Shown: one piece after another, positions 1,070 to 18,668 of the stretch
Layout: each line of letters begins with the position of its first letter
Numbering within the stretch: position 1 is the first letter of the stretch
DNA from: Mariprofundaceae bacterium
Lineage (GTDB): Bacteria; Pseudomonadota; Zetaproteobacteria; Mariprofundales; Mariprofundaceae
Direction of reading: 5' to 3'
DNA: 64,000 nt
Assembly (NCBI GenBank): GCA_015488115.1
Contig: WFOK01000016.1
Coordinates: forward strand, 1 to 64,000
Made by a program: the position numbers and the translations under genes
The notes under the pieces: generated by a model
Database searches by the model: none
Seen by the model: the letters and a program-made list of their open reading frames with translations, nothing else
Told to the model about the DNA's origin: nothing

Positions 1070-1720
1070 ATGACCAAGAACAGCCAACCGCTCAAGCCGG
1101 GCGAAAAAATCCTCTTTACCGTAGCCGGCGCTTTTGTCGTTTTTGCGCTGGTGGCCTTCATCATCATGCAGTTCGTGATTGCGAAGTCGGACAAGCCCGT
1201 GTTCGAAACAAAGACACACGCGGAGCTTTCGCCCGAGGGGCAGCATGGCTCGGAGCTGTTCCGCACCAATGGTTGTACGACCTGTCACCGCGCATTGCGC
1301 AATGGGACAAACATGGGGCGAACGGCCGATCTTGATGGTATCGGCTCTCGCCGTTCGCTGGACTGGCTCTATGCCTTCTTGCGTCATCCGGAGCAGACCT
1401 ATGAGGCGCCGACCATGGATCACCATGCCGGAGAGCATTCGGCTGCTTATGTGGCGCAACTGCCTGAAAAGGATCTTCACGCCATCGCCGTGTTTCTTTC
1501 CGAGCTGAAGGCCGATCAGGGCTCGGCTGCGGCACCGGTGCCGCCCAAGGGAGAGTCGCCGTTCATCGATGCCATGGTCAAGATGGTGGCGCCGAAGGAA
1601 TGGAAAGAAAAATACAGGGATATTCGCGACAAGATGAAGGATGAAGAGCAGGCTCGGTCGGCTGGGGAGCAGTCGCCGTCCAATGAGTCTGGCAAGGCTG
1701 CTGAGGAGGAGCGCCCGTGA
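1070..1720 (+). CDS. Membrane-anchored mono-haem c-type cytochrome
   Basis: The 216-residue protein has a short cytoplasmic start, one membrane anchor (about residues 12-38) and a periplasmic cytochrome c domain. The haem site is CTTCH (69-73) and Met116 is the likely distal ligand. A charged, Lys/Glu-rich tail follows. The segment LDGIGSRRSLDWLY is closely matched in the cytochrome at 7901-8395, so the two are probable paralogues. Its stop overlaps the GTG start of the short CcoN-like gene. A role passing electrons to the oxidase is inferred from position. A promoter-like sequence places the mRNA start at the ATG. Confidence 0.88.
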   Translation: MTKNSQPLKPGEKILFTVAGAFVVFALVAFIIMQFVIAKSDKPVFETKTHAELSPEGQHGSELFRTNGCTTCHRALRNGTNMGRTADLDGIGSRRSLDWLYAFLRHPEQTYEAPTMDHHAGEHSAAYVAQLPEKDLHAIAVFLSELKADQGSAAAPVPPKGESPFIDAMVKMVAPKEWKEKYRDIRDKMKDEEQARSAGEQSPSNESGKAAEEERP

Positions 1721-2223
1721 ATCAGCCATGGGAAGATCAGGAGTATGTCAAGTATACGCTGTGGTTCGTGTTCGCCTGCGTCATCTACAGTCTGATCGGC
1801 TTTTCCTGGGGTGCGCTCATGGGCGGCATCCATGAGTTTCGACATTTCGTGGATCACAGGCTGCATGGCAACCTGATTGTGCGCGCCCATACGCATATCA
1901 ACCTTCTGGGCTGGGTGGAGATGGCCATTTTTGCGGCCGTCTATTACATCATCCCGAGGCTGGTGAAACGGCCCATCTACAGCATCCGGCTGGTCAAGGC
2001 CCATTTCTGGACGCACAACCTGGGTCTGATTGGCATGGTCGTGTTCTTCACCACGGCCGGCATCATCGGCGGTTCGGCCAGTGTTTCGATGCCTCCGGAT
2101 GAGGTCGAGTTGCTGGTGCGTCCCTGGCTTGCCACGATGGGGGTCTTTGGTTCCCTGGTTTTGCTGGCCAATTGCATCTGGGCCTACAATATCTTCATGA
2201 CATGCAGGGGGTGGCGCCGGTGA
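1717..2223 (+). CDS. Short haem-copper-oxidase subunit I-like membrane protein
   Basis: The 168-residue protein has about four membrane spans and covers only part of a CcoN/NorB-type subunit. The motif RAHTHINLLGW (His58, His60) matches the region around the low-spin haem ligand of the full CcoN at 3970-5376, and YYIIPR with PIYSIRL follow in the same order. It lacks the CuB histidines, so it is unlikely to reduce oxygen alone. The GTG start overlaps the upstream stop (GTGA), with GAGGAGG 7 bases before it. A paralogue lies at 16536-17075. It may bind one haem b or act as a quinol/electron-transfer or assembly subunit; this is inference. Confidence 0.82.
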   Translation: MNQPWEDQEYVKYTLWFVFACVIYSLIGFSWGALMGGIHEFRHFVDHRLHGNLIVRAHTHINLLGWVEMAIFAAVYYIIPRLVKRPIYSIRLVKAHFWTHNLGLIGMVVFFTTAGIIGGSASVSMPPDEVELLVRPWLATMGVFGSLVLLANCIWAYNIFMTCRGWRR

Positions 2224-2720
2224 TGCGGGTGCTTGCTGTCCTGCTCCTGCTGTTGCTGGCCGGCTGCGGCGATCTGGATGTCGGCGGGGGCGGCGTGCTT
2301 CTTTCCGGCAAGCCGGCACCAGTCATCAAGACCAAGACGCTCAAGGACGTGGGCGGGGATCTGGCCAAGATCACGAGCTATCGCTATCCCGACCCGCGTA
2401 TGTACCAGCTTTCGTTCGACGATGCGCTGAAAATGCACAAGCCCATCGTCGTCGAGTTCGCCACGCCCGGGCACTGCACGCAGTGTGACAAGCAGCTTCA
2501 ATTGTTGAAGGTCATGATGAACAAGTACGAGGGCAAGGTGCTCTTCCTGCACATGGACCAGTACTACAACCCCGAGGCTTATGATGCCTTTCAGGTTCGC
2601 GGCGAGCCATGGACCTTCGTCATCAATGGGCAGGGGCTGGTGGAGGTGGTTTATCCGGGGCGCATCCTTTATCAGGAGATCGATCCGGTGCTGGCCCGCC
2701 TGACCGGGGCGGATGGCTAA
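2223..2720 (+). CDS. Thioredoxin-like lipoprotein with CTQC motif
   Basis: The 165-residue product starts at the ATG that overlaps the previous stop (TGATG). It has a lipobox LLAGC with Cys15. The thioredoxin-like domain starts near residue 65 and has the redox pair C85-T-Q-C88 and a probable cis-proline (Pro129 in RGEPWT). In oxidase operons, membrane-tethered thioredoxins commonly reduce apocytochrome CXXCH thiols or copper-site cysteines. That role fits here but is inferred. The motif is not the usual WCGPC. Confidence 0.85.
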   Translation: MRVLAVLLLLLLAGCGDLDVGGGGVLLSGKPAPVIKTKTLKDVGGDLAKITSYRYPDPRMYQLSFDDALKMHKPIVVEFATPGHCTQCDKQLQLLKVMMNKYEGKVLFLHMDQYYNPEAYDAFQVRGEPWTFVINGQGLVEVVYPGRILYQEIDPVLARLTGADG

Positions 2721-3184
2721 TGGCCGGCCGAAGGGATGAGGTCCGGGTTCGCCTCAAACCCGATAAGGCAGGGGTTGTTTGGGATCTGCTGCTCTATGTG
2801 CCGACCGTGACCTTCCTGCTGCTCTGGGGGTTGAAGTTCTGGTACGGGAAGGAGGATCAGGTCTGGATCGGGTATGGCCTGATGTTTTTGGGGTTCTTTT
2901 TCCTGATGGTTGGCGGCGGACGCATCCTTCGACGCCTGCTGATCATGCCGGGTGCGCCGGTGGAGATGGATGTCAATCGTCAGCGCATTCGCATGACCTT
3001 GAAGAATGGTGATTCGGTCTCGCTGATCAGGGACGTGCGCTTCTTCTCCGACTATGCCGGCAAGTCCTTTGCATTGACCGGGCTGGATCAGCAGGGACTC
3101 AAGCGTCAGTTCATCTTTCATCGCAAGCAGTTCGACGAAGATGAATACGAACGCGTCTGCAAGCTGCTGGAGCGTTACAAGTAG
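2720..3184 (+). CDS. Two-span membrane protein with cytoplasmic domain, unknown
   Basis: The ATG overlaps the upstream stop (TAATG). The 154-residue protein has a basic N-terminus, two membrane spans (about 23-42 and 52-72), then a soluble C-terminal part containing EMDVNRQRIRMTLKNGD and VRFFSDYAG. The soluble part looks like a small beta-rich PH-like domain. Last gene of the four-gene operon starting at 1070. I do not recognise the family; an accessory role for the oxidase is inferred from position only. Confidence 0.75.
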   Translation: MAGRRDEVRVRLKPDKAGVVWDLLLYVPTVTFLLLWGLKFWYGKEDQVWIGYGLMFLGFFFLMVGGGRILRRLLIMPGAPVEMDVNRQRIRMTLKNGDSVSLIRDVRFFSDYAGKSFALTGLDQQGLKRQFIFHRKQFDEDEYERVCKLLERYK

Positions 3185-3194
3185 GGCAAGTGGC

Positions 3195-3443
3195 CTAGCT
3201 GCGTCCCTGGCGCCGAAGGATATCCCAGAAGAAGTAGCCCATGATCGCTGCGGCGATCAGGACGACGATGGTGATGAGCCAGAATTCCGTGCGCTCGCTG
3301 ACCAGGCCGCCGACGAACATGTGCACTGAATAACCGAAGATGAACAGGCCGGCCAGTCCGCTGATGCCAAAGAGCAGTATTTCCCTCATGACGCAAAGAT
3401 GCAGCGAAACGCCTTGCGGCTCAAGGCTTTGAAGGGGTGCCAC
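3195..3443 (-). CDS. Small two-span membrane protein, unknown
   Basis: The 82-residue frame has two clear hydrophobic spans and a basic end (WDILRRQGRS). The GTG at 3443 is preceded by GAGGA at a suitable distance. An internal ATG at 3389 would give a 64-residue protein covering both spans but has no visible ribosome-binding site. It is the only minus-strand gene between the two parts of the oxidase island and is convergent with the gene ending at 3184. Function unknown. Confidence 0.55.
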   Translation of the reverse strand: MAPLQSLEPQGVSLHLCVMREILLFGISGLAGLFIFGYSVHMFVGGLVSERTEFWLITIVVLIAAAIMGYFFWDILRRQGRS

Positions 3444-3558: not shown

Positions 3559-3822
3559 GTGAAAAGTTCGATATGGTTGACCATCGTCGCCGGTTTCGTG
3601 ACCGGCATGGGCAACGGTTCCGTGTTTACCGTTGCGTTCCTGTTGGCCGTGGGGCGTGGTCCGTTTGATGAGGCGGGCATGTGGTTCATGGATCCTTATG
3701 ATCCCTTCACCTATCAAGGTGTGGCGGACTGGATCATGTTCATTTTCGGCTTTGCGTTTGTATTGATTCTGGGGTATGCGCTCAAGCAGCATGCATTGCT
3801 TGAAGGGATTCAGGAGGAGTAA
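3559..3822 (+). CDS. Small two-span membrane protein preceding ccoN
   Basis: GTG start, with AGGAGG 5 bases upstream. The 87-residue product has two hydrophobic spans (about 5-28 and 55-75) joined by an aromatic loop with FMDPYDPFTYQ. First gene of the ccoN operon, followed after 3 bases by a 36-codon gene. I do not recognise a family. Position suggests a small structural or assembly subunit of the oxidase. Confidence 0.78.
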   Translation: MKSSIWLTIVAGFVTGMGNGSVFTVAFLLAVGRGPFDEAGMWFMDPYDPFTYQGVADWIMFIFGFAFVLILGYALKQHALLEGIQEE

Positions 3823-3969: not shown

Positions 3970-5376
3970 ATGCTGAAATACTTATTCGCCAAAGAGGAGG
4001 ATATACCGCAGGGAACTGCGGCCGTATTCTTTGCTGTATCGTCCATTGCCTGGTTCATCATCGGAACCGGCTTGGGCTCGTTCAATGCGGCCAAGCTCGC
4101 TTTTCCGGACTTTTTCCATGGCTCCTATGCGCTGCAGTTCGGCCACATGCGCCAGGTGCACGTGCATGCCGTGATCTTCGGCTGGATCGCCATGGCCTTC
4201 GCCGCCTCCATGATGTACATCACGCCGGCGCTCGGCAACACCAAGCTGTGGAGCGAAAAGCTTGGTGTATGGAACTGTCTGCTGTACAACGTGGGGCTGT
4301 GCCTCGCCCTGGCCCTGCTCTGGTCTGGTGTGACATCGGGCCGCGAGTACTCCGATCATATCTGGCCGATTGACCTGTACATCGCGTTTGTCATGGTGCT
4401 GCCGTGGGCGCTGAACGTGTGGATGACGATCCTGAATCGTCGCACGCAGGGCATCTATACGACGAACTGGTTCTTCGGCGCCTGCATGTTCATGACCGTG
4501 ATCGTGTTCCTGATCGGTAATCTTCCGGAATGGTTCCACCTGACCGGTCTGAACGAGGCCTACATGACCTGGTGGTTCGCGCACAACATCCTGGGTCTTC
4601 TGATCACGCCGGTGGCGGCTGCGATCACCTACTACATCGTGCCGAAGATCACGGGCAACCCGTTGTATTCGCACCGTGTAGGACACCTGCACTTTTGGTC
4701 GATCGTCGTGTTCTACTCCACGCCGGCTGCTCACCATCTGATGAGCTCTCCGCTGCCGGAGTGGCTGAAGTCGTTCGCCTCGGTTGAGGGCGTGCTGATC
4801 CTCGTGCCGGCCATTGCCTACGTCTGCAACATTCTGCTGACCATGCAGGGCAAGTGGGCCATGTTCGTGGAGAACATCGAGATCAAGTTCACGATCACTG
4901 GCGTTCTCTTGGCCATTCCGCTGAACATGCAGGGTGGTTTCCAGCAGACGCGCGCGATCAACTGGTACATCCATGGCACCGGCTGGATCGTGGCGCACGC
5001 CCACCTGGCCCTGCTCGGCTTCTCGACGTTTGCCGAGGCGGCAGCGGTGTACTACGGCCTGCAGGTCTTGCTGCGCCGCAAGCTTTATTCCTCATCGCTG
5101 GCCAACTTCCACTTCTGGATGCTTCTGATCGGCTTCTCCCTGTACTGGGTGTCGATGACGATCGCTGGCCTGATCCAGGGTGCGGCCAAGATCTACGAGG
5201 TGCCGTACATGGATGTGGTCATTGGTGAACATCCGTACATGGTTGTCCGCTGGCTGGGTGGAACGATGGTGTTCTTCGGCAACATCGTCTGGCTGTACAA
5301 TATGGTCATGACGGCGCGTGCCGGTACCCCGGTGCCTGCTGGACGCCAGCCCGCTGAGGTTGCGTACACACGCTGA
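3970..5376 (+). CDS. ccoN: cbb3-type cytochrome c oxidase subunit I (CcoN)
   Basis: Catalytic haem-copper subunit, 468 residues with about 12 spans. His64 (RQVHVHAVIFGW) is the likely low-spin haem ligand. CuB ligands are His205 (WWFAHNILG) and His255/His256 (TPAAHH). Tyr249 sits 44 residues after His205, as expected for the cross-linked tyrosine of cbb3 oxidases. His343 and His345 (VAHAHLALLG) are the haem b3 and second haem b ligands. All redox ligands are present, so it should reduce oxygen. Flanking sequence is divergent from common CcoN, consistent with a separate clade. ccoO follows after a GC-rich hairpin. Confidence 0.95.
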   Translation: MLKYLFAKEEDIPQGTAAVFFAVSSIAWFIIGTGLGSFNAAKLAFPDFFHGSYALQFGHMRQVHVHAVIFGWIAMAFAASMMYITPALGNTKLWSEKLGVWNCLLYNVGLCLALALLWSGVTSGREYSDHIWPIDLYIAFVMVLPWALNVWMTILNRRTQGIYTTNWFFGACMFMTVIVFLIGNLPEWFHLTGLNEAYMTWWFAHNILGLLITPVAAAITYYIVPKITGNPLYSHRVGHLHFWSIVVFYSTPAAHHLMSSPLPEWLKSFASVEGVLILVPAIAYVCNILLTMQGKWAMFVENIEIKFTITGVLLAIPLNMQGGFQQTRAINWYIHGTGWIVAHAHLALLGFSTFAEAAAVYYGLQVLLRRKLYSSSLANFHFWMLLIGFSLYWVSMTIAGLIQGAAKIYEVPYMDVVIGEHPYMVVRWLGGTMVFFGNIVWLYNMVMTARAGTPVPAGRQPAEVAYTR

Positions 5377-5452: not shown

Positions 5453-6388
5453 GTGGCTTTTAGAGAGTATAAGATAGGATGCTGGATGTTCGGTATCGCA
5501 TTGAGCTTTTCGATGACGGTTACCATCTTTTTGCCAAGCATTGACATCTCGTCGATGTCATCAACCAAGGAGGCGCTTGAGAAGCAGCTGACCTATGGCT
5601 GGGAGAGCGGCTTCAACTACTACGATCCATTCCTGCAGGGTAAGGACAAGCCGATCAAGGTCATCCTGAACAAGGATCCGATGACCGGCGAGGCCATCGA
5701 TGAAACGGCGGCCTATGTGTTCCCGGCTGGAACCCATTTTCCGAATGGTCTAACCCATGATAACATCCTTGGCGACGACGTGCAGAAGGCCTCCGTGGAG
5801 CTGGGCAAGATTGATCAGGCCTCCGAGGAAGCCGGCGCCGTCTTTCTGGTGCAGACGACCGAGGATGACGTTCCTTACATCGAGAATGCCACGGCTACAC
5901 GCGGTTGGCAGGTCGATGCCGTGCTGAATGCCGCCGAGCAGAAGATCTATGCCGGTGCCGGCAAGACGATGTTTATCCGCGAGGGTTGCTGGTGGTGCCA
6001 TACGCTGCTGCCGGAGCAGACCCAGGACTGGCAGACCTTCGGGCGTCCGCCGCTTGTGGGTGACTTCAATGGCGAATCGCCGACCACGTTCGGCTCCGAC
6101 CGCAAGGCACCTGATCTGCTGCATGTCGGTTCGCGCAACAGCTCTCGGGAGTGGATGACCATGCACTTCTTCAACCCCCGCCTTGTGCAGCCACACTCGA
6201 TCATGCCTCGCTATGATTACCTCTGGGGTGACAAGGATGCCAACGGCAACCCCATCGACCTGGAGGCATGGGACCGCGAGTATCTCGAGTATGCCAAGGG
6301 CAACCGTGTCTATCCGCCTGAGGTGCCGGAACCGGCCCCCGACAGCGAGGCACGCAAGCTCATCGACTTTGTTCTGAATCTGAAATAA
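5453..6388 (+). CDS. ccoO: Divergent mono-haem cbb3 oxidase subunit II (CcoO)
   Basis: GTG start behind GGAGGAG. The 311-residue protein has one N-terminal anchor (about 8-30), a long periplasmic segment (31-165), and a cytochrome c domain. The haem site is IREGCWWCH (Cys179, Cys182, His183) and Met251 (HSIMPRYDYLWG) is the distal ligand. The framework from REGC to the MP motif, with a GS-K-PDL-VG stretch between, is that of CcoO. The two Trp in the CXXCH and the long insert before the haem are unusual. It should accept electrons from soluble or anchored cytochromes and pass them to CcoN. Confidence 0.9.
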   Translation: MAFREYKIGCWMFGIALSFSMTVTIFLPSIDISSMSSTKEALEKQLTYGWESGFNYYDPFLQGKDKPIKVILNKDPMTGEAIDETAAYVFPAGTHFPNGLTHDNILGDDVQKASVELGKIDQASEEAGAVFLVQTTEDDVPYIENATATRGWQVDAVLNAAEQKIYAGAGKTMFIREGCWWCHTLLPEQTQDWQTFGRPPLVGDFNGESPTTFGSDRKAPDLLHVGSRNSSREWMTMHFFNPRLVQPHSIMPRYDYLWGDKDANGNPIDLEAWDREYLEYAKGNRVYPPEVPEPAPDSEARKLIDFVLNLK

Positions 6389-6401: not shown

Positions 6402-7055
6402 ATGGCTTGGACATTAAGACGGCCGCTACATACACTGACAACGGAAGATGAAAACCAGCGGGCGAAAGACCTTTGGGAGGGCGAAAGCCTTGGCGGCATC
6501 GCCGAGAACAACAATCCCCTGCCGCGCCCGGTCATCGGTCTGCTGCTGCTGACCTACTTCACGGCCATGGCCATCACGTTTCCGCTCTATGGTCAGCGAC
6601 CAACGGCCGCTATCTACGCGGACTACGTTGCGCTGCTGAACAGTGAGCCCGTGCAGGAGGTCATCAACGACACTTCGCTTCCGTACAACGAGCGTAATGA
6701 CAAGGCGATGGCCATGATCGAGGACGCGCTGGCGCATTTCGACTCGAAGTATACGTTCCAGCGTGAACAGCATCCGATTTCCATGGATCAGCTGAAGATC
6801 ATCGCGCCGCAGATCGTGGAGCTTCAGACCGCAGGCGTGGATCTTGAGGAATACATTGTCGTCGGACCGGAAGTGATCAAGTCCAACTTCTTCAACATCC
6901 AGCCTGATGGCACCGTGATTGCGAAGCAGCCATGGTGGGATAAAGGCTATACGGTCGCATGCTGGTGGTTCATCGTGTTCTGCCTTTCCGTGATCATTGC
7001 AGTCAAGCGCCTGCCTCCGTTCACATGGCGGCCGGATCACTCGATTGCGCACTAA
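6402..7055 (+). CDS. CcoP-like membrane subunit lacking haem-binding motifs
   Basis: The 217-residue protein begins with a segment resembling the CcoP N-terminus: WEGESLGGIAENNNPLPRP (residues 25-43) precedes a membrane span, as in the WDGI-ELNNPLPRW signature. A periplasmic region rich in acidic residues follows, then a second span near residues 185-205 (CWWFIVFCLSVIIAV). There is no CXXCH anywhere, while ordinary CcoP carries two. The third oxidase subunit thus seems to keep a structural role while separate cytochromes in the cluster supply haem c. It follows ccoO by 13 bases with GGGGAGG as ribosome-binding site. Confidence 0.75.
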   Translation: MAWTLRRPLHTLTTEDENQRAKDLWEGESLGGIAENNNPLPRPVIGLLLLTYFTAMAITFPLYGQRPTAAIYADYVALLNSEPVQEVINDTSLPYNERNDKAMAMIEDALAHFDSKYTFQREQHPISMDQLKIIAPQIVELQTAGVDLEEYIVVGPEVIKSNFFNIQPDGTVIAKQPWWDKGYTVACWWFIVFCLSVIIAVKRLPPFTWRPDHSIAH

Positions 7056-7295: not shown

Positions 7296-7601
7296 ATGAA
7301 CGGATGGTTTGCCGCATTGCTGCCCATTTTGCTAGCGCCCGTGTCGGCCTGGGCCGCAGGCTCGCAGAGCTTCGATCTCGGCATCGAGAGCATGCGCTCG
7401 CACTCCTACAGTGTGGGCATCTTTGTGTTCATGATGATCGCGATTGCCGTGTTTGTCGGCATCATGTTCGCGCATTTCCGACCGAAGAAAGGGGAAAAGG
7501 TCAAGACCGGTGAAAAAATGCTGTTCGGGTGGATCATCGTGGGCGTGATCGCAGCCATCCTGTTTGCGGCCGTGCAACTGCTTGACGGCATCCTTTTTTG
7601 A
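7296..7601 (+). CDS. Small exported two-span membrane protein in oxidase island
   Basis: The 101-residue protein has a cleavable-looking signal peptide (to about residue 21, AWAAGS), then two membrane spans (about 40-60 and 76-96) separated by a Lys-rich cytoplasmic loop (RPKKGEKVKTGEKM). The layout loosely recalls the N-terminal membrane hairpin of oxidase subunit II without the copper domain. First gene after the terminator at 7230-7261. Function unknown. Confidence 0.75.
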   Translation: MNGWFAALLPILLAPVSAWAAGSQSFDLGIESMRSHSYSVGIFVFMMIAIAVFVGIMFAHFRPKKGEKVKTGEKMLFGWIIVGVIAAILFAAVQLLDGILF

Positions 7602-7631
7602 GCTGACAATCCACGACCCACGGAGGTGTCG

Positions 7632-7898
7632 ATGTTTGGCATAGAACTACAGGATGGCTGGACCATCTATATCTGGCTGATCAGCGGGGCATGCATTCTG
7701 ATCGGTGTCGTGTTTGGCATACGCTGGGCTGCCCGCAACGAACAGTTCGACGAGGACATCAAGTATTTGGTGTTCGATGACAATGACAGGGACAAGATGG
7801 ATCCGGCCGAATTCGCCAAATACCAGGAGGTTGTCAAGAAGCAGGAGGCCAGGCGCAAGGAAGTCCTTGCTCAAAAAGAGGCCGAACGCAACAGCTAA
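7632..7898 (+). CDS. CcoS/FixS-like cbb3 oxidase maturation protein
   Basis: Start at the ATG 7632 because ACGGAGG lies just before it; an in-frame GTG at 7626 overlaps that site. The 88-residue product has one membrane span followed by RWAARNEQFDED (31-42) and VFDDND (47-52). These match the WAVRSGQFDD and LFDDD signatures of CcoS, needed for cofactor insertion into cbb3 oxidase. The Lys/Glu-rich helical tail is longer than in typical CcoS (about 50-70 residues). It precedes a cytochrome gene by 2 bases. Confidence 0.75.
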   Translation: MFGIELQDGWTIYIWLISGACILIGVVFGIRWAARNEQFDEDIKYLVFDDNDRDKMDPAEFAKYQEVVKKQEARRKEVLAQKEAERNS

Positions 7899-7900: not shown

Positions 7901-8395
7901 ATGCTTGAACGCATCAATTGGATGACCGTGGTCACAACGGCCATTCTATTGTTCGCCGGCTTGCTGATCTATGCCACGATTCAGGGCATCATGCATCCGG
8001 CCGAAAACAGAAAGGCGCGGCAGGAGCTTCCGTTTTACTCCACGGCGGACGCGGAACTTCAAAGGGCGGGTGGCGAATTGTACCGCAAGCTTCAGTGCCG
8101 TAATTGCCATACAATATGGTCGGTCAAGAGCGTGTACCAGAATGTGCCAGCGCCGAGTCTGGATGGTATTGGGTCGCTGCGCAGCGAGGATTGGCTATAC
8201 CGCTACTTTTCTGCTGAGAACCCACAGGCCATTTTACCCACGCGCTTGAAGGACAAATATAAGATGCCGTCCTATGCCGATCTGGATGAAAAGGAGAGGC
8301 GTATCTTGGCCCGGTATTTTGCAAGCTTGAAGGTGCGCGACTGGTACCTTGATGAGGTTCGCAAGGCCGAGCGGGCCAAGTTGACTGGACAATGA
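7901..8395 (+). CDS. Membrane-anchored mono-haem c-type cytochrome
   Basis: The 164-residue protein has an N-terminal anchor (about 8-28) and a periplasmic cytochrome domain with CRNCH (66-70) and Met122 (KYKMPSY) as probable distal ligand. SLDGIGSLRSEDWLY is shared with the cytochrome at 1070-1720, so they are likely paralogues. It overlaps the next gene by 4 bases (ATGA). With the haem-free CcoP-like subunit nearby, it is a candidate for the missing CcoP haem function; this is inference. Confidence 0.88.
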   Translation: MLERINWMTVVTTAILLFAGLLIYATIQGIMHPAENRKARQELPFYSTADAELQRAGGELYRKLQCRNCHTIWSVKSVYQNVPAPSLDGIGSLRSEDWLYRYFSAENPQAILPTRLKDKYKMPSYADLDEKERRILARYFASLKVRDWYLDEVRKAERAKLTGQ

Positions 8396-10572: not shown

Positions 10573-13191
10573 ATGAATCCACACTGGCTGCTGGTCGCTG
10601 TCTATGCCGGAACCGGCATGACCGCGCTGGCCTACGAAATCCTCTGGATGCGCATGTTGTCGCTGATGTACGGCATCAGCTCGTTTGGCGTTGTGTTCAC
10701 GGTGACGGCCTTCATGGCCGGCTTGGGACTGGGCAGCCTTCTGGGCACGCGGTCTGCTGTGCGCTTTTCCGCGCGACGCGGTCTTTCGACTTTGGCTCTC
10801 ATCGAGGGCGGGCTGGCCTTGTATGCCATGATCCTTCCGCTGCTGTTGCCCAGGTTGGACTCGTTCCTGCTTCATCTGGGTGCCGGCCTTCCATTGGGCA
10901 GCTGGCATGCCCTTCAGGGCGCGGGGGTGCTCCTGCTGCTGCTGCCGGCCGCTCTGCTCATGGGGCTTGCCTTCCCAATGGCTCTGGCGGGAGCGCGAGC
11001 CTTCAGGATCGATGTGGGGATCATGTACGGAAGCAATGCTTTGGGCGGCGCCGTGGGGGCATGGTTGCCTTTGTGGCTGTTGCCTGCCTTGGGCTGGCGT
11101 CACAGCCTTTGGCTCACTGCGGCCGTAGGGCTTTTTCTGTCCTTTTCTGCATGGTTCTTGAGCAGGGAAGCCGATACACGTGCGGAAGACAGGCACGAGC
11201 ATGGGGGGGGCGCATCCGCTGTTCGACCACCGGTACCGGATCTCCTGGCCTATGCCTTGATCGGTGCATCGGCCCTGATGTTCGAGGTGCTCTGGTCACG
11301 CCTGTTTGGGACACTGTTGTTACGCACCGAATACGTGCTGGCCGTGCTGCTCTTTGTCTATCTTGCAGGCATTGGGCTGGGAGGAGTGTTGGGTCGGCGG
11401 TTGCAAGCGCCTTTCTGGTTCAAGTCATTTCCGTTGCTCATTGCCACGGCGGCCATTGCCAGTCTCTATGCCCTTCCTCTGCTTGGTCAGTGGATTGCTG
11501 CGACATCGTTCCCCTCGTTTCCCATTGCGCTGATGACGCAGGCCCTGGCCATCACGGGCTGCACATTGCCGGTCACGTTGCTGCTTGGTGCCTGGTTGCC
11601 GATGCTCAACCGGCGCTTCTCCGGTGGGGATCCCTCCGGAGGCGGCTGGTGGTATGGAGCCAACAGCATCGGTGGCGCCGTTGGCGCCATGCTGGCCGGT
11701 TTTGCATTGATCCCAGTCCTTGGCAGCCCCATGGCCCTGATCCTTGCAGCCGTGCTGGTCTTCGCGGCTGGCATGCGATGGGCGCATGAGCCAAGACTAT
11801 GGATGTTCTTGCCCGCTTTGCTCTTACTTGCCTGGCCGGTGATGCACTGGCCTCCCGTGGCCGATCTGTTGCCCCGCCTGAAGGATGTGAAGGATCTCTC
11901 CGTATACGAGGATGCCATTGCACTTACACATGTCGTGGAGCGAGCTGATGGGCAACGCCTTCTTCTTTCCGACCTTCAGCGCATGGATGCCTCGAGTGAC
12001 CCTCTGGCGGTCGTCGTTCAGAAGAATCAGTCCCGGTTGCCGCTGCTGTTGCATCCAGGGGCTGAAAGCATCTTGTTTCTGGGGCTCGGTACGGGAATCA
12101 CGGCATCAGGATCCCTGGCGTTTCCCGGTCTTAGAAAGCGCGTGAGCGTTGAGCTCTCGCAAGGCGCCATCCTGGCCGCCGGCACCTATTTCAGGCCTGT
12201 CAACGCGGGCATTCTGGATCAAATGCAGATCATCGTCGATGACGGGCGTCGTTTTTTGCGCACGGGCATGGAGACCTATGATGTGATTGTGGGCGATCTG
12301 TTCCATCCGGATATGGCAGGTCGGGCCAATCTTCTTTCGCTGCAACAGTTTCGAAGGGTTCGCGCCCGACTGACGGACCATGGGGTGTTCGTGCAATGGC
12401 TTGCGCTCAACCAGTTTGATGTACGTTCTCTGAAGGTGATTCTGGCAACCTTTCTGAAGGCCTTTGGTTCGGGGCATGCGGTCGTGTTCATCGATGGCTA
12501 TCGACTGGCCATGGTCGGTTTCAAGGGCCCCCCATCCACGGTCGCAAGGCTTATGCGGCAACATGCCCTGCTCGAGGGGGATGCCGGCGGACATGAAGGG
12601 CTATGGACATGGCTTGGTCGCTGCTGGGGGGAGATTCCCGGGAAATGGCTGCAAGAGGTTCCCCTGCAGGATGAATGGTCCCCCGTCATTGAATACGCAT
12701 TGCCGCGGGTGCGCTATGAGGGCGGTGTGGACATGATCGCCATGTGGGGTTGGCTGCTGCAATGGCGTGCGAGCGATGAAGCGGTCCTGCGCTTCTGGCA
12801 TGCAGACGCTTCGCATCGTCCCCCCTTGGTTCGGGCCCGGGCTGGCAGTGCCCTGGATGTGCGCATGTGGCTTGCCGAGCTGCAAGGGGATGAGCACAAG
12901 GCCGTTGCTTATGCGAGGCTGGCCAAGCGCGCAAATGGGAAAGACCGATGGCCGAGCATTCTGCTCGCCGATCGTATGTTTGCTTCCCTGCGGTACGGTC
13001 TTCCCTCCGGGCTGACGCGCAGGCAGGCCTTGATGAAGATCTTGGATGTGTATCCTTGGCATGAGGGCGCGTTGCGCGAGATGTGGCTGCTGAGCCAGGA
13101 GGACGGCCATGTCTCGGAGGCCAGGCGATGGCATGACCGGCTGGCAGCCGTCGCTCCGCTCACCATTGATGTCCGCTCCGGTTTACATTAG
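10573..13191 (+). CDS. Large membrane protein with C-terminal spermidine-synthase-like domain
   Basis: 872 residues. The first ~430 form many membrane spans organised as two similar halves (MTALAYEILWMRMLS near the start and ASALMFEVLWSRLFG near residue 240). A Rossmann methyltransferase/aminopropyltransferase-like domain follows, with LFLGLGTGITAS near residue 500, an acidic residue in SVELSQ, and VIVGDLFHP. A helical tail, possibly TPR-like, completes it. Such fused proteins are often annotated as spermidine synthases, but the true substrate is unknown. It lies 11 bases upstream of ccoG and in the same operon. Confidence 0.85.
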   Translation: MNPHWLLVAVYAGTGMTALAYEILWMRMLSLMYGISSFGVVFTVTAFMAGLGLGSLLGTRSAVRFSARRGLSTLALIEGGLALYAMILPLLLPRLDSFLLHLGAGLPLGSWHALQGAGVLLLLLPAALLMGLAFPMALAGARAFRIDVGIMYGSNALGGAVGAWLPLWLLPALGWRHSLWLTAAVGLFLSFSAWFLSREADTRAEDRHEHGGGASAVRPPVPDLLAYALIGASALMFEVLWSRLFGTLLLRTEYVLAVLLFVYLAGIGLGGVLGRRLQAPFWFKSFPLLIATAAIASLYALPLLGQWIAATSFPSFPIALMTQALAITGCTLPVTLLLGAWLPMLNRRFSGGDPSGGGWWYGANSIGGAVGAMLAGFALIPVLGSPMALILAAVLVFAAGMRWAHEPRLWMFLPALLLLAWPVMHWPPVADLLPRLKDVKDLSVYEDAIALTHVVERADGQRLLLSDLQRMDASSDPLAVVVQKNQSRLPLLLHPGAESILFLGLGTGITASGSLAFPGLRKRVSVELSQGAILAAGTYFRPVNAGILDQMQIIVDDGRRFLRTGMETYDVIVGDLFHPDMAGRANLLSLQQFRRVRARLTDHGVFVQWLALNQFDVRSLKVILATFLKAFGSGHAVVFIDGYRLAMVGFKGPPSTVARLMRQHALLEGDAGGHEGLWTWLGRCWGEIPGKWLQEVPLQDEWSPVIEYALPRVRYEGGVDMIAMWGWLLQWRASDEAVLRFWHADASHRPPLVRARAGSALDVRMWLAELQGDEHKAVAYARLAKRANGKDRWPSILLADRMFASLRYGLPSGLTRRQALMKILDVYPWHEGALREMWLLSQEDGHVSEARRWHDRLAAVAPLTIDVRSGLH

Positions 13192-13202: not shown

Positions 13203-14531
13203 ATGTCTGCCGGCAATGCACTCAACCAGATTCCGGTTCGCGAGGAGCCGCGCGTTCCCGGCGCTAGTTTTCTGCATCCTGCGCGACGCCTGAGCCAGTT
13301 GCTGACCCTTGTCCTGCTCATTGCCATTCCCGCCTCGGGCCTGTTTCGCATCGATCCCGTCTCGGGCTCCTTTGTCATGCTCGATCGGCAGATTTGGTTC
13401 TCCGATATCTTCATTGTCATGGGGTTCTGGATTTTTGTGGCCAGTCTGCTGGTCATGATGTACTCTCTGGTGGGCGCCGTGTTTTGTGGATGGATGTGTC
13501 CACAGAACACAGTGTCCGAATGGGCCAATCACCTGACCGAGCGTCTGCTTGGCCGCAAGGCCCGGATGATGAGCTTGGATGGCAGCAGGATGGAGGTGGC
13601 CAGGCGCCGGAAGTCTCTGCTCAATTATCTTGTGCTGGGCATGTTGCTGCTGGCTGCGGCCATGTTCTATGCTCTGATTCCGCTGTTTTACTTCTATCCG
13701 CCAGAAGCTATCTGGTCTTTTGTCACGTTCCGGGAGGATCCGGCCCTGGCGGATTCATTACACTGGATCTATTTCGTGGTCGTGGCCGTGATGTTTATCG
13801 ATATTGCGGTCATTCGACATTTGTTGTGCAAGTACATGTGTATCTACCGTGTCTGGCAGCATTCGTTCAAGACTAGGGACACCCTGCATGTTTCCTATGA
13901 CGCATCACGCGCTGAGGATTGCGCTCATTGTCATTATTGCATGGATGCCTGCTTTCTCGATCTTGATCCGCGCAAGCCCGAGCTGTTTGACAGTTGCGTC
14001 AACTGTGGTGAATGCATTGTGGCCTGCGATGAGCTTCATGTGCGGAGCAGGAAGATGCAGGGCCCGGGGCTGTTGCGCCTGAAGCTGGGGGATGAATGGA
14101 AGGGCAGGTCGCGAGGCGCGCTGGGCTCCTTTTTCGGCCGCGCCAAGGCTGCCACGGCTTTTACATTGTTGGGTCTGCTGATGTTTGCCTATGGCATTAC
14201 GCAGTATGCGCCGGCCTCGTTCACGGTCTATCGCAGCGACCGCTGGCAGGGCAGCGATGTACGCGATTACACGATCAACATTGCCTGGAAGCTGAACCGG
14301 CCCGAGGATCTGTCGGTGCGCGTCGATGGGCTGGATTCCTCTTTGTACCGGCTGGAGCGCAGCAGGGTGCATTTTGATCAGGCCGGGAGGGTGAACGTCG
14401 GGCTGCATTTGAGCAAGAACATGCCCGAGGGCCTGCACCGGTTCAATATTGTCGTTGCTTCAGAGGACGGCTGGTCGGATGATTACGAGCTTCGCCATTA
14501 TGCCAATGGCGGTGGCAAGCAGGGGCTGTGA
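13203..14531 (+). CDS. ccoG: cbb3 oxidase assembly iron-sulfur protein CcoG
   Basis: 442 residues with four to five membrane spans. VFCGWMCPQ (Cys95, Cys99) is the CcoG motif linked to copper reduction. Two four-cysteine [4Fe-4S] sites follow: Cys240/243/246/250 and Cys265/268/271/275, the second in CVNCGECIVACD. The C-terminal periplasmic region resembles the Ig-like domain of the family. The first cluster is unusual in lacking the Pro after its last Cys (CMDACFLD). CcoG helps deliver copper to cbb3 oxidase; its position supports that here. Confidence 0.93.
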   Translation: MSAGNALNQIPVREEPRVPGASFLHPARRLSQLLTLVLLIAIPASGLFRIDPVSGSFVMLDRQIWFSDIFIVMGFWIFVASLLVMMYSLVGAVFCGWMCPQNTVSEWANHLTERLLGRKARMMSLDGSRMEVARRRKSLLNYLVLGMLLLAAAMFYALIPLFYFYPPEAIWSFVTFREDPALADSLHWIYFVVVAVMFIDIAVIRHLLCKYMCIYRVWQHSFKTRDTLHVSYDASRAEDCAHCHYCMDACFLDLDPRKPELFDSCVNCGECIVACDELHVRSRKMQGPGLLRLKLGDEWKGRSRGALGSFFGRAKAATAFTLLGLLMFAYGITQYAPASFTVYRSDRWQGSDVRDYTINIAWKLNRPEDLSVRVDGLDSSLYRLERSRVHFDQAGRVNVGLHLSKNMPEGLHRFNIVVASEDGWSDDYELRHYANGGGKQGL

Positions 14532-14543: not shown

Positions 14544-14963
14544 ATGGAAGAAAAGAAGAAGTCATCAGACGAATCTCGGGATGTCGGACCGGTCAACAGC
14601 AAGTGGGGCGAGATACCGGAGGACCATTTCGGCTATGCATCGGATGAAGAACGCCGCAGGAAGAGAGGTTTGGAGGATTGGGAACTGGTGGAGAAGATTC
14701 CAGAGTCCCAGCGTCGCGTTCCGGCATGGTTCTTCGCCATCATCCTCGCTGTGCTGCTGGTCGCTTTCGGTCTGACCCTGCCGTTCTGGGGCGACAGGCC
14801 GGACCATCCAAGGCCTTGGTTCACCTGGGGGCATGTCGCGGCCGTGGCTTATTTGCTGATCGCAGGCGGCTTCATCTATTTCATGACCACGCTTTACGGA
14901 TCCAAGCGTGCCGGTCGACTGGATAGCGATCAGGAACGGGACGAAGATGATGCTTCCAAATAG
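14544..14963 (+). CDS. Two-span membrane protein of the oxidase island, unknown
   Basis: 139 residues: a long charged cytoplasmic N-terminus (about 60 residues), two membrane spans (about 62-80 and 96-115) joined by a short loop with WGDRPDHPRPWFTWGH, and an acidic tail. It follows ccoG by 12 bases and overlaps the next cytochrome by 17. The site could be that of a CcoH- or CcoP-type accessory protein, but no family signature is visible. Confidence 0.72.
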   Translation: MEEKKKSSDESRDVGPVNSKWGEIPEDHFGYASDEERRRKRGLEDWELVEKIPESQRRVPAWFFAIILAVLLVAFGLTLPFWGDRPDHPRPWFTWGHVAAVAYLLIAGGFIYFMTTLYGSKRAGRLDSDQERDEDDASK

Positions 14964-15264
14964 CATGACTGCCTTCAGTGGCCTGCTGCTGGCGTCGTTG
15001 CTTGCTTCCTGCACTCAGGAAAGTCCCGCCGTCCCTGCCTATCCGGAAATGGATGGCGAGAGATTCAGGGTTTTTGCGGAACACTGCTCATCCTGCCATG
15101 CCCCGCCGAAGCCGACGGTTCACGTTGCAAGGGAATGGCCCTTCGTGATCGCCCGCATGCAGCAGCATCGTGTGCAGCGTGGGCTGGGGCCGATCCCGGC
15201 TGCGGACATGGAGAAGATCAAGGACTATCTGCTCGAATATGCCAAGGCGGAGCATGGGCGATGA
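14947..15264 (+). CDS. Mono-haem c-type cytochrome lipoprotein
   Basis: The ATG at 14947 gives a 105-residue product with lipobox LLASC (Cys22) and haem site CSSCH (47-51); an in-frame ATG at 14965 is an alternative. Met76 or so (ARMQQHR) may be the distal ligand. The fold is short, about 70 residues after the lipid anchor. It overlaps the next gene by 4 bases (ATGA). Probably a membrane-tethered periplasmic electron carrier. Confidence 0.8.
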   Translation: MMLPNSMTAFSGLLLASLLASCTQESPAVPAYPEMDGERFRVFAEHCSSCHAPPKPTVHVAREWPFVIARMQQHRVQRGLGPIPAADMEKIKDYLLEYAKAEHGR

Positions 15265-15686
15265 GGAAGGTATCCTTCTGGCTGTTGATTTTGCTCATGG
15301 GGGGATTTCTAGCTGGCTGCTCGTCGAACGAACAGGCCTGGAAGCCGCCGGCCAAGCAATGGCAGGACCTGACCGTCGAGGTCGAATCGCGTCCTGAACT
15401 CCCTCGCCAGGGCATGAACGAGTTCATCGTCATCGTGAACCGCGCTAAGCGTGGTTACATCTCCGACCTGATCGTGAATGTTCGGACCGAGCACAGTGGT
15501 GATTGGCGTCAGGCCATGCCGGATGGCGCACTGGGCGTCTATCGGCGTGCGCTCCCCGTTGAAGATCCGGGGCGCGAACATCTGTACGTGCAACTGATTC
15601 GCGGACAGAAGCAACAAGCTGAACTCGTCTTTCCGCTCGCTGTCGGTACGCCTGCTCTTCAGGGGGACGCTGTTGAACGCAACTAG
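15261..15686 (+). CDS. Periplasmic lipoprotein, possible FixH/YtkA-like fold
   Basis: Start at the ATG overlapping the upstream stop. The 141-residue protein has a lipobox LAGC near residue 20 and a beta-rich domain with GMNEFIVIVNRA, then MPDGALGVYRRALP and YVQLIRG. The order (opening strand, a Met-bearing turn, a Tyr-containing strand, a closing strand) recalls the YtkA/FixH family found in oxidase operons. The match is weak. It overlaps the next cytochrome by 14 bases. Confidence 0.7.
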   Translation: MRKVSFWLLILLMGGFLAGCSSNEQAWKPPAKQWQDLTVEVESRPELPRQGMNEFIVIVNRAKRGYISDLIVNVRTEHSGDWRQAMPDGALGVYRRALPVEDPGREHLYVQLIRGQKQQAELVFPLAVGTPALQGDAVERN

Positions 15687-16029
15687 CCTGCTCCTCGGCA
15701 TGTGCCTGGGTCTGCTGTTGCTGCCCCCATGCGGAAGCGCTGCCGATGCGGCCAGAGGCGCGATTGTGGCCAAGGTGCGCTGTTCGCCGTGTCACCACCT
15801 TGACGCGCCCTCGACGCACATTGGCCCGAGCCTGCTGGGCGTTTACGGGCGAAAGCCATCCATCGAGGGCGTGCCGTTTCAGGAGTGGTCGGCCAGCGCG
15901 CTTGATCTCTGGTTGCGCAATCCCAGGGCCGTCAAGCTGAATACGAAAATGCAGCTTCCTCCGCTCTCAAAGCGCGATCGCCAGGATATCATCGCCTATC
16001 TGGCGCAGCAGGCGGACTCACTTCGCTGA
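15673..16029 (+). CDS. Small periplasmic cytochrome c
   Basis: TTG start with CAGGGGG just upstream. The 118-residue product has a signal peptide (cleaved near residue 24) and a class I-type cytochrome c domain: CSPCHH (37-42), IGPSLLGVYGRK, and a Met (TKMQLPPLS) as distal ligand followed by the C-terminal helix. It is likely a soluble or loosely anchored electron donor. Its 3' end overlaps the convergent gene at 16018-16539 by 12 bases. Confidence 0.88.
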   Translation: MNATSLLLGMCLGLLLLPPCGSAADAARGAIVAKVRCSPCHHLDAPSTHIGPSLLGVYGRKPSIEGVPFQEWSASALDLWLRNPRAVKLNTKMQLPPLSKRDRQDIIAYLAQQADSLR

Positions 16030-16539
16030 ACGCTGTCGAATCCGGGCTTCCAGCTTGGGGCTTCTCAACCAGTGGCGAATGATCATGATCTGGGTGCCAC
16101 CGCGATCCTCGCGGCAGCGGGGGCAGGTCAGGTAACTCAGGTACAGTTCGGTTGGACGCTTGCCTTCGTCAAATAGCTCGGACTGCATCTCGCGTATGGC
16201 CTGCTTGATCTGGTGGACCTCACCCTTGAACAGGCGGCAGCGGATCATGAACGGGTTCTTCAGGCGTTTGATGCGCCTGGCCGGCGAATGATCGTCAGCC
16301 AGCAGGGCATAGATTCTGCCTCGAAACATGCCCGTCTTGGCCAGCACGAAGCCGGGCCACTGCTCCTCCAGACCCAAGCGACTGATATCCTGATGCTGGC
16401 GGTCCAGGCATGCCTCGAAGCCGATGGGCATGTGAAGGAACATCGGAACGGCTTGCTCGTGCACCAGCCAACCGCCCAAATCGATGTCCTTTCCATGCCA
16501 GTCTGGCCATTCCGAAGGGCAACCGCAGTCCAGTCTCAT
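16018..16539 (-). CDS. Hypothetical protein with N-terminal CGC and C-terminal CPRC motifs
   Basis: 173 residues, no signal peptide or membrane span. It starts MRLDCGCPSEWPDW and has a late LTCPRCRED, so two cysteine pairs could bind a metal. The middle is rich in Arg/Lys with a helix QIKQAIREMQSELFDEGK. The ATG overlaps the stop of the upstream CcoN-like gene (ATGA), indicating co-translation. I do not recognise a family; a metal-handling or regulatory role is only a guess. Confidence 0.75.
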   Translation of the reverse strand: MRLDCGCPSEWPDWHGKDIDLGGWLVHEQAVPMFLHMPIGFEACLDRQHQDISRLGLEEQWPGFVLAKTGMFRGRIYALLADDHSPARRIKRLKNPFMIRCRLFKGEVHQIKQAIREMQSELFDEGKRPTELYLSYLTCPRCREDRGGTQIMIIRHWLRSPKLEARIRQRSAK

Positions 16540-17075
16540 GAGGGCGAGTCTGCCCCCCTGTAGATATCTTTCAAGGTCAGCAGCACATTGGCCAGATAGA
16601 CCCAGAAGCCTATGGCCAGGATGCTGGCCGAAATGGAGATGACCGGACCGTAGAAGCGGTGAACGGATGGAATGCTGGCCGGGTCGCTCAGCCAGAGGTT
16701 TCCTTCAACGATACCGAAGATCAGCAGGGCCGTATAGAAGGATAGCACGCCAACCGTGGTCCACCAGAAGGAGTGCTCGGCCAAGCGGTGCGAGTGAATC
16801 GGCTTGCCGGTGACCTTGGGCAGCATGTAATAGGTGACGGCCATGCCAAGGATGGTCACGCCGCCGACGAGATTGATGTGGGCGTGGGCCAGCGGGTCGA
16901 TCATGTGTCCCGGGCCGCCGTAGGGGCTGCCGATGGAATCCAGCCAGGAGCGAACGGCCGGAATGACCTGGAGAAGACCGTGAACCGTGCCGATGAAGAA
17001 TGACAACACGGACATGATCAGAAACTTGACCAGGTAGCGATGTTCATGATGGGAAGCTTGATCTGGTTGATTCAT
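16536..17075 (-). CDS. Second short haem-copper-oxidase subunit I-like membrane protein
   Basis: 179 residues with four to five spans. LAHAHINLVGG (His64, His66), YYMLPKVTGKPIHSHRLAEHSFWW and a late span match the same part of CcoN as the protein at 1717-2223, and the PKVTGKP-HSHR stretch is even closer to CcoN (PKITGNPLYSHR). The CuB histidine pair is absent. It is divergently transcribed from the c4 gene group and flanks the island on the opposite side from its paralogue. Confidence 0.82.
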   Translation of the reverse strand: MNQPDQASHHEHRYLVKFLIMSVLSFFIGTVHGLLQVIPAVRSWLDSIGSPYGGPGHMIDPLAHAHINLVGGVTILGMAVTYYMLPKVTGKPIHSHRLAEHSFWWTTVGVLSFYTALLIFGIVEGNLWLSDPASIPSVHRFYGPVISISASILAIGFWVYLANVLLTLKDIYRGADSPS

Positions 17076-17143
17076 AGCGCTGGCAGCATAGCGGCCACGG
17101 ACGGCGGTGCAAGCGGCGATGCATCTGGTCTGTCCGCTCGTGG

Positions 17144-17545
17144 ATGACTAGACTGCCGCGCATGCCTGTTTCTGTCGTGCTGGTGATGCTCAGTTTTCTC
17201 GTCATGGGGCTTGCCTGGCTGTGGCGAAAGCGCCATCGATTGCATGTGATGCTCATGGGGCTGGTCATCGGCTTTGATGTGCTGTTTCCCGTCTGGCTGT
17301 ATCTCACCCATGACTGGAAGCGGCGCCTTATTGATGAGGGGGAGCTTTTTTCCTTCCTGGTCTGGGCGCATCTGTTCCTGGTGCTGACCCTGTATGCGCT
17401 CTATGTGCTGCAGGTCCAGGCGGGTAAACAACTGCTTGCACAACAAGAGCATAGCCGACAGAATCACCGCGTTCAGAGTAGGGGCATTGTACTGGTGAGG
17501 CTGTTCGTCTTTCTGACCGGGGCCTTGCTGATTGAGCCAAAGTAG
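17144..17545 (+). CDS. Membrane protein, possibly DUF420-like
   Basis: 133 residues (start at 17144; ATG 17162 is an alternative and neither has a good ribosome-binding site). Four hydrophobic spans: about 8-25, 35-55, 68-88 and 112-128. Charged pairs sit between them, including KRRLIDEGELFSFLVWAHLFLVL. The general layout resembles DUF420/CtaM-type oxidase assembly proteins, but conserved histidines cannot be confirmed. It lies between the CcoN-like gene and the c4 group. Confidence 0.65.
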   Translation: MTRLPRMPVSVVLVMLSFLVMGLAWLWRKRHRLHVMLMGLVIGFDVLFPVWLYLTHDWKRRLIDEGELFSFLVWAHLFLVLTLYALYVLQVQAGKQLLAQQEHSRQNHRVQSRGIVLVRLFVFLTGALLIEPK

Positions 17546-17637: not shown

Positions 17638-17787
17638 ATGCTTGCTCATCTTATCGAGGCTTCGACGGGGTTCCAGACTGGAACGGTTCTGAGCATGTAT
17701 CTGGTAATCTTTGTGACGCTGGGGGTCATCGCGGCGATCGGATACATTGCTGCAATTCGGCGCCAGGAAGACCGGAACAAGAATTAA
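17638..17787 (+). CDS. Tiny single-span membrane protein upstream of cytochrome c4
   Basis: A 49-codon frame, MLAHLIEASTGFQ, one membrane span, then RRQEDRNKN. AGGGAGG lies 7 bases before the ATG. It is followed after 32 bases by the di-haem cytochrome gene. The pattern of a tiny membrane protein next to a redox gene repeats those at 3826 and 7076. Function unknown. Confidence 0.7.
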   Translation: MLAHLIEASTGFQTGTVLSMYLVIFVTLGVIAAIGYIAAIRRQEDRNKN

Positions 17788-17819
17788 GTAAGGGACGTAA
17801 TATTTCAGGAGGGAAATGC

Positions 17820-18608
17820 ATGAAACGGTTGACAATGACGATGGGAATGGCAGCCATCACGGCTTTCTTGGCCGTGCCAGTGCTTGCCAGCGCCGGTGAG
17901 GTGACCGGCGATGTGGACAATGGCCGGAAGATCTATCAGAACGGCAAGGGCGACAATGTCCCGGCGTGTCAGGGTTGTCACGGCATCGACGGTCTTGGCA
18001 GCGATGACATGGGCACGCCTCGATTGGCCTATCAGGTTGACACCTACATCCTCAAGCAGTTGGCTGACTTCGCCAAGGGTATCCGCAAGGACAACACGAT
18101 GTTCCAGATGAACGATATCGCCGCGGGCCTGACCGAGCAGGAGATGAAGGATGTCGCTGCTTACGTGCATACGCTGAAGACGCCATTCATCGGTTCCGAT
18201 CTCGACAAGCTGGCCAAGGATGACCCGTCGGTTGGAGACCCGGCCAAGGGCAAGATGATCGCCGAGTTCGGTGCTCCCGATCATGGTGTGCCGGCTTGCC
18301 AGAGCTGCCATGGCTTCCATGGACGTAGTGCTGGTCGGCTGTATCCGGCCATCGGTGGCCAGCGTTATACCTACCTGAAGCATGAGCTGGAAGCCTTCCG
18401 CGAGGGTTGGCGCGCCTATGGCAGCAAGTCGCTGTCCGCAGCCGATGCCGAGTCCATGGATGATGCCGTCCGCGTCAATGACTACATGGGCCAGATGCGC
18501 GCCGTTGCGGGTCGGTTGACGGATGAGGACATTGCGAATGTCGCCGCCTTCCTGACCGTGGCTCGTCCGGTTGCTCCGGGCAATCCGCGTTCGCCCGTCC
18601 GTCAGTAA
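17820..18608 (+). CDS. Di-haem cytochrome c4-like protein
   Basis: 262 residues: signal peptide (to about residue 25), then two similar halves with haem sites CQGCH (50-54) and CQSCH (160-164). Each is preceded by VPAC and followed by HG. This is the c4 pattern of duplicated class I domains. Cytochromes c4 are soluble or membrane-associated donors to cbb3 oxidases in proteobacteria, which fits the island. CAGGAGGGAAATGC precedes the start, and a strong terminator follows at 18640. Confidence 0.93.
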   Translation: MKRLTMTMGMAAITAFLAVPVLASAGEVTGDVDNGRKIYQNGKGDNVPACQGCHGIDGLGSDDMGTPRLAYQVDTYILKQLADFAKGIRKDNTMFQMNDIAAGLTEQEMKDVAAYVHTLKTPFIGSDLDKLAKDDPSVGDPAKGKMIAEFGAPDHGVPACQSCHGFHGRSAGRLYPAIGGQRYTYLKHELEAFREGWRAYGSKSLSAADAESMDDAVRVNDYMGQMRAVAGRLTDEDIANVAAFLTVARPVAPGNPRSPVRQ

Positions 18609-18639
18609 ACGACGCGCTTAAATCGCATCCAGGCACGGA

Positions 18640-18668
18640 AACGGGGGGCTTTCATGCCCCCCGTTTTC
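18640..18668 (+). terminator. Intrinsic terminator after the c4 gene
   Basis: AACGGGGGGC (18640-18649) and GCCCCCCGTT (18656-18665) form a perfect 10-pair stem with a 6-base loop, followed by TTTC. The U-tract is short, but the stem is very stable. Confidence 0.8.

Follow-up and report, generated by a model that had tools for sequence, protein, structure and literature searches.

The stretch of DNA analysed here, referred to as the window, comprises positions 1 to 64,000 of contig WFOK01000016.1 (C16) from a Mariprofundaceae bacterium of the Zetaproteobacteria (assembly GCA_015488115.1). The draft genome measures 1.69 Mb, is distributed over 72 contigs and is 98.65% complete, and a genome scan returned Mariprofundaceae as the nearest named relatives. 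Positions 1070–18608 harbour an island of genes encoding a cbb3-type cytochrome c oxidase, most likely of the kind termed distal, together with a CcoP-like subunit devoid of haem, separate c-type cytochromes and numerous small membrane proteins. All the genes named in an initial annotation, made from the sequence alone, were located by open reading frame (ORF) and profile checks (Table 1). Their tight packing is also borne out: most neighbours abut or overlap, and gaps of ∼100–300 bases are found at 3443–3559, 3822–3970, 7055–7296 and 17545–17820. Three genes, hyp82m, the Bact_hydrolase-like gene and N_small2, lie on the minus strand. The likely starts of the thioredoxin-like lipoprotein (2223), hyp191 (2720) and cytC (14947) differ from those of the longest ORFs.

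The catalytic subunit CcoN is ligand-complete, as had been reported: H64, H205, H255, H256, H343 and H345, together with Y249, are present in 74/74 relatives. The six haem and CuB histidines and the cross-link tyrosine on helix VII are those of the C-type (cbb3) haem-copper oxidases and match canonical CcoN in all 74 sequences; judged by these residues, CcoN carries the ligand set expected where a haem-copper centre reduces O2. All 74 distal proteins have Gln321 at a site where 14/14 canonical CcoN proteins have a glutamate. In a tree of 28 distal, 14 canonical and one NorB-like row, the distal rows split from the canonical ones with support of 100/98, and identity to the window CcoN is 77–96% for distal and 28–32% for canonical proteins. 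The score against the ccoN equivalog TIGR00780 is 244 bits, below the cut-off of 583. The branch corresponds, most likely, to the cbb3 subtree that goes by the name ‘distal’ (Ducluzeau 2008); the name rests on a taxon match with PMC7029218 and, since the tree holds no published distal sequence, identity with that subtree is inferred.

CcoO proved divergent and mono-haem, in agreement with the initial annotation, with one CXXCH in 79/79 relatives. A fold search with its model returned nothing at E≤0.001, a result that carries little weight because the haem core was modelled poorly (mean predicted local distance difference test, pLDDT, of 65). The CcoP-like protein is haem-free, as first described, CXXCH being absent in 73/73 relatives, and is not the di-haem CcoP of a canonical ccoNOQP operon. 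In its alignment a GI-x-E-x-N motif and, behind it, a proline immediately precede the first transmembrane (TM) helix; E35, N37 and P41 are invariant in 39 sequences and resemble the E-x-NNPLP of canonical CcoP. The FixP_N profile matches the window protein at E=0.0027 and its relative in locus L112 at E=1.8e-4, with scores of 17.8 and 21.6 bits that stay under the gathering cut-off of 24.9, and does not match the relatives in L127 and L139. Comparison with the N-terminus of canonical CcoP by hhalign gave 35–57%, the 57% run at E=1.1e-4. A PDB sequence search with the CcoP-like alignment produced no match up to E=1, and a PDB fold search with the model (pLDDT 83) nothing at E≤0.001. The protein is probably, though not provenly, a CcoP relative, on grounds of resemblance and not of family membership. 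Hyp139 aligns with it over 41 columns (hhalign, 93.7%) and is perhaps a second relative of the CcoP-like anchor.

Five c-type cytochromes accompany CcoO and bring the number of CXXCH motifs to seven, as originally counted: one each in CcoO, cytA, cytB, cytC and cytD and two in cytE. The single motif is kept in 50/50 relatives of cytA and 58/58 of cytB, the pair of motifs in 39/39 of cytE. CytA and cytB are TM-anchored one-haem paralogues (hhalign, 99.3%), present in 44/50 and 47/49 loci with enough flanking sequence, respectively. H118 of cytA, found in 51/51 sequences, is a possible sixth haem ligand, and M122 of cytB (56/59) a probable one. The lipobox cysteine and haem motif of cytC are conserved in at least 95% of 28 sequences. 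This gene was detected in 16/31 loci from outside the Zetaproteobacteria (non-zeta loci), and cytD is restricted to Zetaproteobacteria in the sample, as no non-zeta locus carries it; both are therefore poor candidates for core haem carriers. By their sequences, cytA and cytB appear good candidates for that role. Canonical CcoO and CcoP carry three c haems between them, and CcoO, cytA and cytB add up to the same number of membrane-anchored c haems. In non-zeta loci the island opens with cytE, whose product is likely to be a Cyc1-like electron donor.

Conservation of the block was assessed at several levels. When the window proteins were compared by tblastn with 25 stretches, two from the same genome and 23 from relatives, same-order runs of island genes emerged in 21/23 of the latter; L047 and L048, chosen for weak FixO matches, yielded stray cytochrome matches only. 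When named genomes were scanned with the CcoO alignment, 217 relatives came up. Among the best 80 of these 217, which set a lower bound on the spread of the family and supply all its non-zeta members, the carriers are Zetaproteobacteria, Gammaproteobacteria (Ectothiorhodospiraceae and Chromatiales among them), Nitrosomonadales and Ca. Nitrotoga. When 399 genomes of the phylum were sampled, only members of the window's own taxonomic order gave matches at E≤1e-20. Gene order was counted in loci with sufficient flank, both flanks being present in 35: the synteny suggested as a check holds, with the core order kept in 34 of the 35 and all 19 core genes in 22. The core genes lie on both sides of ccoNO, and three lineages share their order: Zetaproteobacteria, Gammaproteobacteria and Nitrosomonadales, Ca. 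Nitrotoga included. The loci read include those of two cultured relatives, Mariprofundus erugo P3 (L088) and Mariprofundus sp. EBB-1 (L097). Some Zetaproteobacteria have a split block; in L033, for one, only the portion from cytA to the CcoP-like gene was found. As these ORFs and their order recur in many other genomes, the small proteins are, on comparative grounds, real genes and the block is kept together by selection and not by chance.

The surrounding genome was searched for a canonical CcoP or ccoNOQP operon, which the initial annotation had singled out as the finding that would overturn its reading, and neither was found. In this genome the FixO search, which covered 61 genomes in all, detected only the divergent CcoO and no canonical one, and the FixP_N search only the haem-free CcoP-like gene. 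COX1 matches are limited to CcoN, the two short CcoN-like proteins and one full-length relative on contig C67 (L045, 8904–10331, minus strand), which, from its sequence, reads like the cytochrome c nitric oxide (NO) reductase NorB. A CydA (cytochrome bd) gene is also present. The window lacks the CcoI copper ATPase, as had been stated; a copper P-type ATPase is encoded on contig C23. The island oxidase thus appears to be the sole O2-reducing haem-copper enzyme of a 98.65% complete genome, in a lineage known for iron oxidation. Across the 41 zetaproteobacterial genomes listed, FixO score bands assign a divergent CcoO to 22, a canonical one to 17 and both to 7.

Table 1. Genes of the island, with profile matches and conservation of place (zeta, Zetaproteobacteria).
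Gene or product	Position	Strand	Features
cytA	1070..1720	+	N-terminal TM anchor, one haem c; PF00034 E=4.8e-8
N_small1	1717..2223	+	4-TM, equivalent to CcoN C-terminal helices; COX1 profile 309-427, E=1.8e-16
Thioredoxin-like lipoprotein	2223..2720	+	Conserved CTxC; PF00085 E=5.7e-7
hyp191	2720..3184	+	2-TM; in place in 13/16 zeta, 31/34 non-zeta loci
hyp82m	3195..3443	-	Small 2-TM; in place in 14/16 zeta, 29/34 non-zeta loci
hyp87	3559..3822	+	Small 2-TM, immediately 5' of ccoN; 16/16 zeta, 33/34 non-zeta loci
CcoN, most likely distal type	3970..5376	+	Catalytic subunit; COX1 E=1.5e-80
CcoO, most likely distal type	5453..6388	+	TM, ~110-residue inserted domain, mono-haem FixO core (REGCWWCH); FixO at residues 169-261, E=1.3e-18
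Haem-free CcoP-like subunit	6402..7055	+	CcoP-like motif and TM at N-terminus, helical domain in the middle, further TM at C-terminus; FixP_N E=0.0027, sub-threshold
hyp101	7296..7601	+	Small membrane protein; in place in 31/31 non-zeta loci
CcoS-like small protein	7626..7898	+	FixS E=0.0042, sub-threshold; 31/31 non-zeta loci
cytB	7901..8395	+	N-terminal TM anchor, one haem c; PF00034 E=7.1e-6
mem175	8392..8919	+	Membrane protein; in place in 16/18 zeta, 28/31 non-zeta loci
FGE-fold protein	8916..9968	+	TM anchor; PF03781 E=1.8e-60
hyp79	9965..10198	+	Small 1-TM; 31/31 non-zeta loci
mem127	10158..10541	+	Membrane protein, about 3 TM; H102, H116 conserved in >=95% of 54
MFS-like / spermidine-synthase-like fusion	10573..13191	+	NF037959 E=4e-14, above cut-off
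CcoG-like ferredoxin-type membrane protein	13203..14531	+	TIGR02745 E=4.5e-35, below curated cut-off
hyp139	14544..14963	+	2-TM; TM motif common to hyp139 and CcoP-like subunit
cytC	14947..15264	+	Mono-haem lipoprotein cytochrome; DHC E=3.7e-4, just under cut-off
Small lipoprotein	15261..15686	+	Lipobox Cys conserved; 27/31 non-zeta loci
cytD	15673..16029	+	Mono-haem cytochrome, signal peptide; PF00034 E=1e-5
Bact_hydrolase-like protein	16018..16539	-	PF20603 E=3.1e-12; same place in non-zeta loci
N_small2	16536..17075	-	Second 4-TM CcoN-half protein; COX1 E=1e-11
DUF420-like 4-TM protein	17144..17545	+	PF04238 E=9.1e-5, below cut-off; within island in Nitrotoga too
cytE	17820..18608	+	Di-haem c4-like periplasmic cytochrome; two PF00034 domains, E=7.3e-21

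The two short CcoN-like proteins noted at the outset resemble COX1 in its C-terminal part only, the profile match starting at position 309. Both are recognizable halves of CcoN (hhalign to canonical CcoN, 98.9% for N_small1 and 97.6% for N_small2; to each other, 98.1%). They keep the AHxH motif, where the b and b3 ligands of CcoN reside, and lack the region in which CcoN carries its CuB histidines and remaining haem b ligand; in N_small1 the motif histidines H58 and H60 are conserved in at least 95% of 52 sequences. That they take part in handling haem b is a guess. The thioredoxin-like lipoprotein, in which C102, C105 and the lipobox cysteine C32 (numbering starts at 2172) are kept by at least 95% of 43 sequences, is a probable assembly factor, and the DUF420-like protein a possible oxidase assembly factor. 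The CcoS-like gene is present and kept in place, its FixS match being below cut-off. The CcoG assignment stands in part: TIGR02745 aligns across nearly the full length, and the score of 121 bits misses the family cut-off of 317. The protein has twelve conserved cysteines, and the CXXCH string within it belongs to a conserved ferredoxin-type cysteine cluster. Among the cysteines of the FGE-fold protein only C28 and C339 are conserved and the catalytic region has no conserved pair; it is probably not a formylglycine-generating enzyme. Mem127, besides its two conserved histidines, gives a weak cytochrome b561-like match (E=0.0088) and is a possible b-type cytochrome.

In the passages of the published accounts drawn on here, two cbb3 forms, proximal and distal, are described for Zetaproteobacteria (PMC7029218). 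Both are present in Sideroxydans, with distal ccoNO ∼three-fold higher overall, and the two subtrees differ in subunit composition (PMC8788666); the distal group is also named for Gallionellaceae (PMC7029218, PMC8788666, PMC10734462). The island resembles the distal oxidase of these organisms as a second cbb3 form with a separate CcoN subtree and a different set of subunits. In Mariprofundus ferrooxydans PV-1, ccoNOP was annotated (PMC3179512). With canonical proximal ccoNOQP oxidases (e.g. 3mk7) the island shares the CcoN fold, the haem and CuB ligands and the mono-haem core of CcoO; it is set apart by the low CcoN identity (28–32%), the CcoP-like subunit without haem, the CcoO insert and the change of Glu to Gln321. 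For Ferrovum JA12, it was proposed in 2016 that co-localized c-type cytochromes substitute for subunit III (PMC4725956). In that cluster only subunits I and II were recognized and the locus-tag spacing resembles the island, a likeness drawn from the published description; the passages concerned report no haem-free CcoP relative. In Sideroxydans ES-1 a cyc1 homologue accompanies the cbb3 cluster (PMC8788666), and c4 is the natural cbb3 donor in Vibrio cholerae according to the title of a reference in PMC11549363. The cyc1 region of Ca. Tenderia electrophaga, which is syntenic with M. ferrooxydans, contains a polyferredoxin and hypothetical proteins, and complex IV-2 of this organism is among its most expressed genes (PMC5371394); that this complex is an oxidase of the island type is a guess from its description.

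The initial annotation saw here an unusual oxidase branch in which separate cytochromes replace the CcoP haems. The unusual branch, the haem-free CcoP-like subunit, the separate cytochromes and their conservation as a unit all stand; as stated, the idea is not new, as the distal branch is already known in iron oxidizers and the split-cytochrome proposal is to be credited to the earlier Ferrovum work. In the same passages, mostly located by term searches, no haem-free CcoP relative, gene order or Gln321 marker is reported, nor any match of three one-haem anchored proteins to the canonical haem count, nor a biochemical account of the distal-branch subunits.

The explanation rated as rather probable is that the genes of the island specify a cbb3 cytochrome c oxidase of the distal type, along with the proteins through which electrons enter it and those that assemble it, and that cytA and cytB supply the two haems of CcoP. 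The haem-free CcoP-like protein would still dock on CcoN as a scaffold, and the complex would regain three c haems. A lithotrophic donor would deliver electrons to the periplasmic cytE, from which they would pass through cytA and cytB to CcoO and then by way of haem b to the b3–CuB site, where O2 would be reduced. The CcoN halves, the CTxC thioredoxin-like lipoprotein and the CcoG-, CcoS- and DUF420-like proteins would help to build the haem and copper centres. A more far-reaching proposal, put forward tentatively and given somewhat less than even chances, is that of a distinct cbb3 architecture common to iron- and nitrite-oxidizer lineages, in which the di-haem subunit has been dismantled into a haem-free CcoP-derived scaffold and two one-haem anchored paralogues that bring the c haems back to three, the whole being built by a fixed kit of ∼19 genes that includes the CcoN halves as possible haem b chaperones. 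The same gene kit is found in nitrite oxidizers. How an enzyme lacking a di-haem CcoP takes up electrons can be put directly to the test and bears on respiration with inorganic donors. The conserved order also names, gene by gene, the candidates for subunits and assembly factors, of which the majority have no known function.

Several observations weigh against the explanation rated as rather probable. The chief sixth-ligand candidate of cytA is a histidine. The cytA and cytB profiles are about equally close to the canonical CcoO and CcoP domains and to cytE and so do not single out the CcoP haem domains as their origin, and the three-haem count may be coincidental. The kinship with CcoP rests on a short N-terminal motif, below the Pfam cut-off and with modest hhalign values. 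As the genome is a draft in 72 contigs, a second oxidase may have escaped detection. Lastly, distal ccoNO of ES-1 is up on thiosulfate and not on Fe(II)-citrate (PMC8788666), at odds with an iron-specific role. Alternatively, the working enzyme would be made up of CcoN, CcoO and the haem-free CcoP-like subunit only, with one c haem, and cytA, cytB and cytE would be separate electron carriers that dock on it transiently. In favour of this, CcoO has a haem of its own, several genes separate ccoNO from cytA on one side and from cytB on the other, and the profiles of these two cytochromes fit the CcoP domains no better than other cytochromes. Such an arrangement is nevertheless judged fairly unlikely, as both proteins are membrane-anchored and nearly always in the island, as subunits would be.

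The island might also join two machines, with cytA and cytB forming part of a conduit to complex III or alternative complex III (ACIII), or serving haem or copper delivery. The FGE-fold protein, the MFS/spermidine-synthase-like fusion and several membrane proteins have no known link to cbb3 oxidases and would fit such a module, but the order of the whole set, kept in three lineages with core genes flanking ccoNO on both sides, makes it improbable. An enzyme whose main activity is something other than O2 reduction, such as an NO reductase, is brought to mind by the Gln321 substitution, and is considered very improbable: the cross-link tyrosine and CuB histidines are kept throughout, the CcoN profile is far nearer to cbb3 chains (5e-65) than to NorB (1e-6), and the genome has a separate NorB-like gene. 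The cbb3 oxidase with cytA and cytB as haem carriers is thus retained as the preferred explanation.

Some further features of the locus deserve mention. In Ca. Nitrotoga (L139, L142, L143 and L148) the DUF420-like gene is placed differently from its counterpart in the window, being flanked inside the island by hyp191 and hyp82m. A promoter scan returned seven sites versus 7.1 expected, and 26 terminator-like sites were counted versus 15.8 in shuffles, many of them located within genes. Directly upstream of the island, a tRNA gene occupies positions 43–114 on the minus strand (Rfam tRNA, 66.1 bits).

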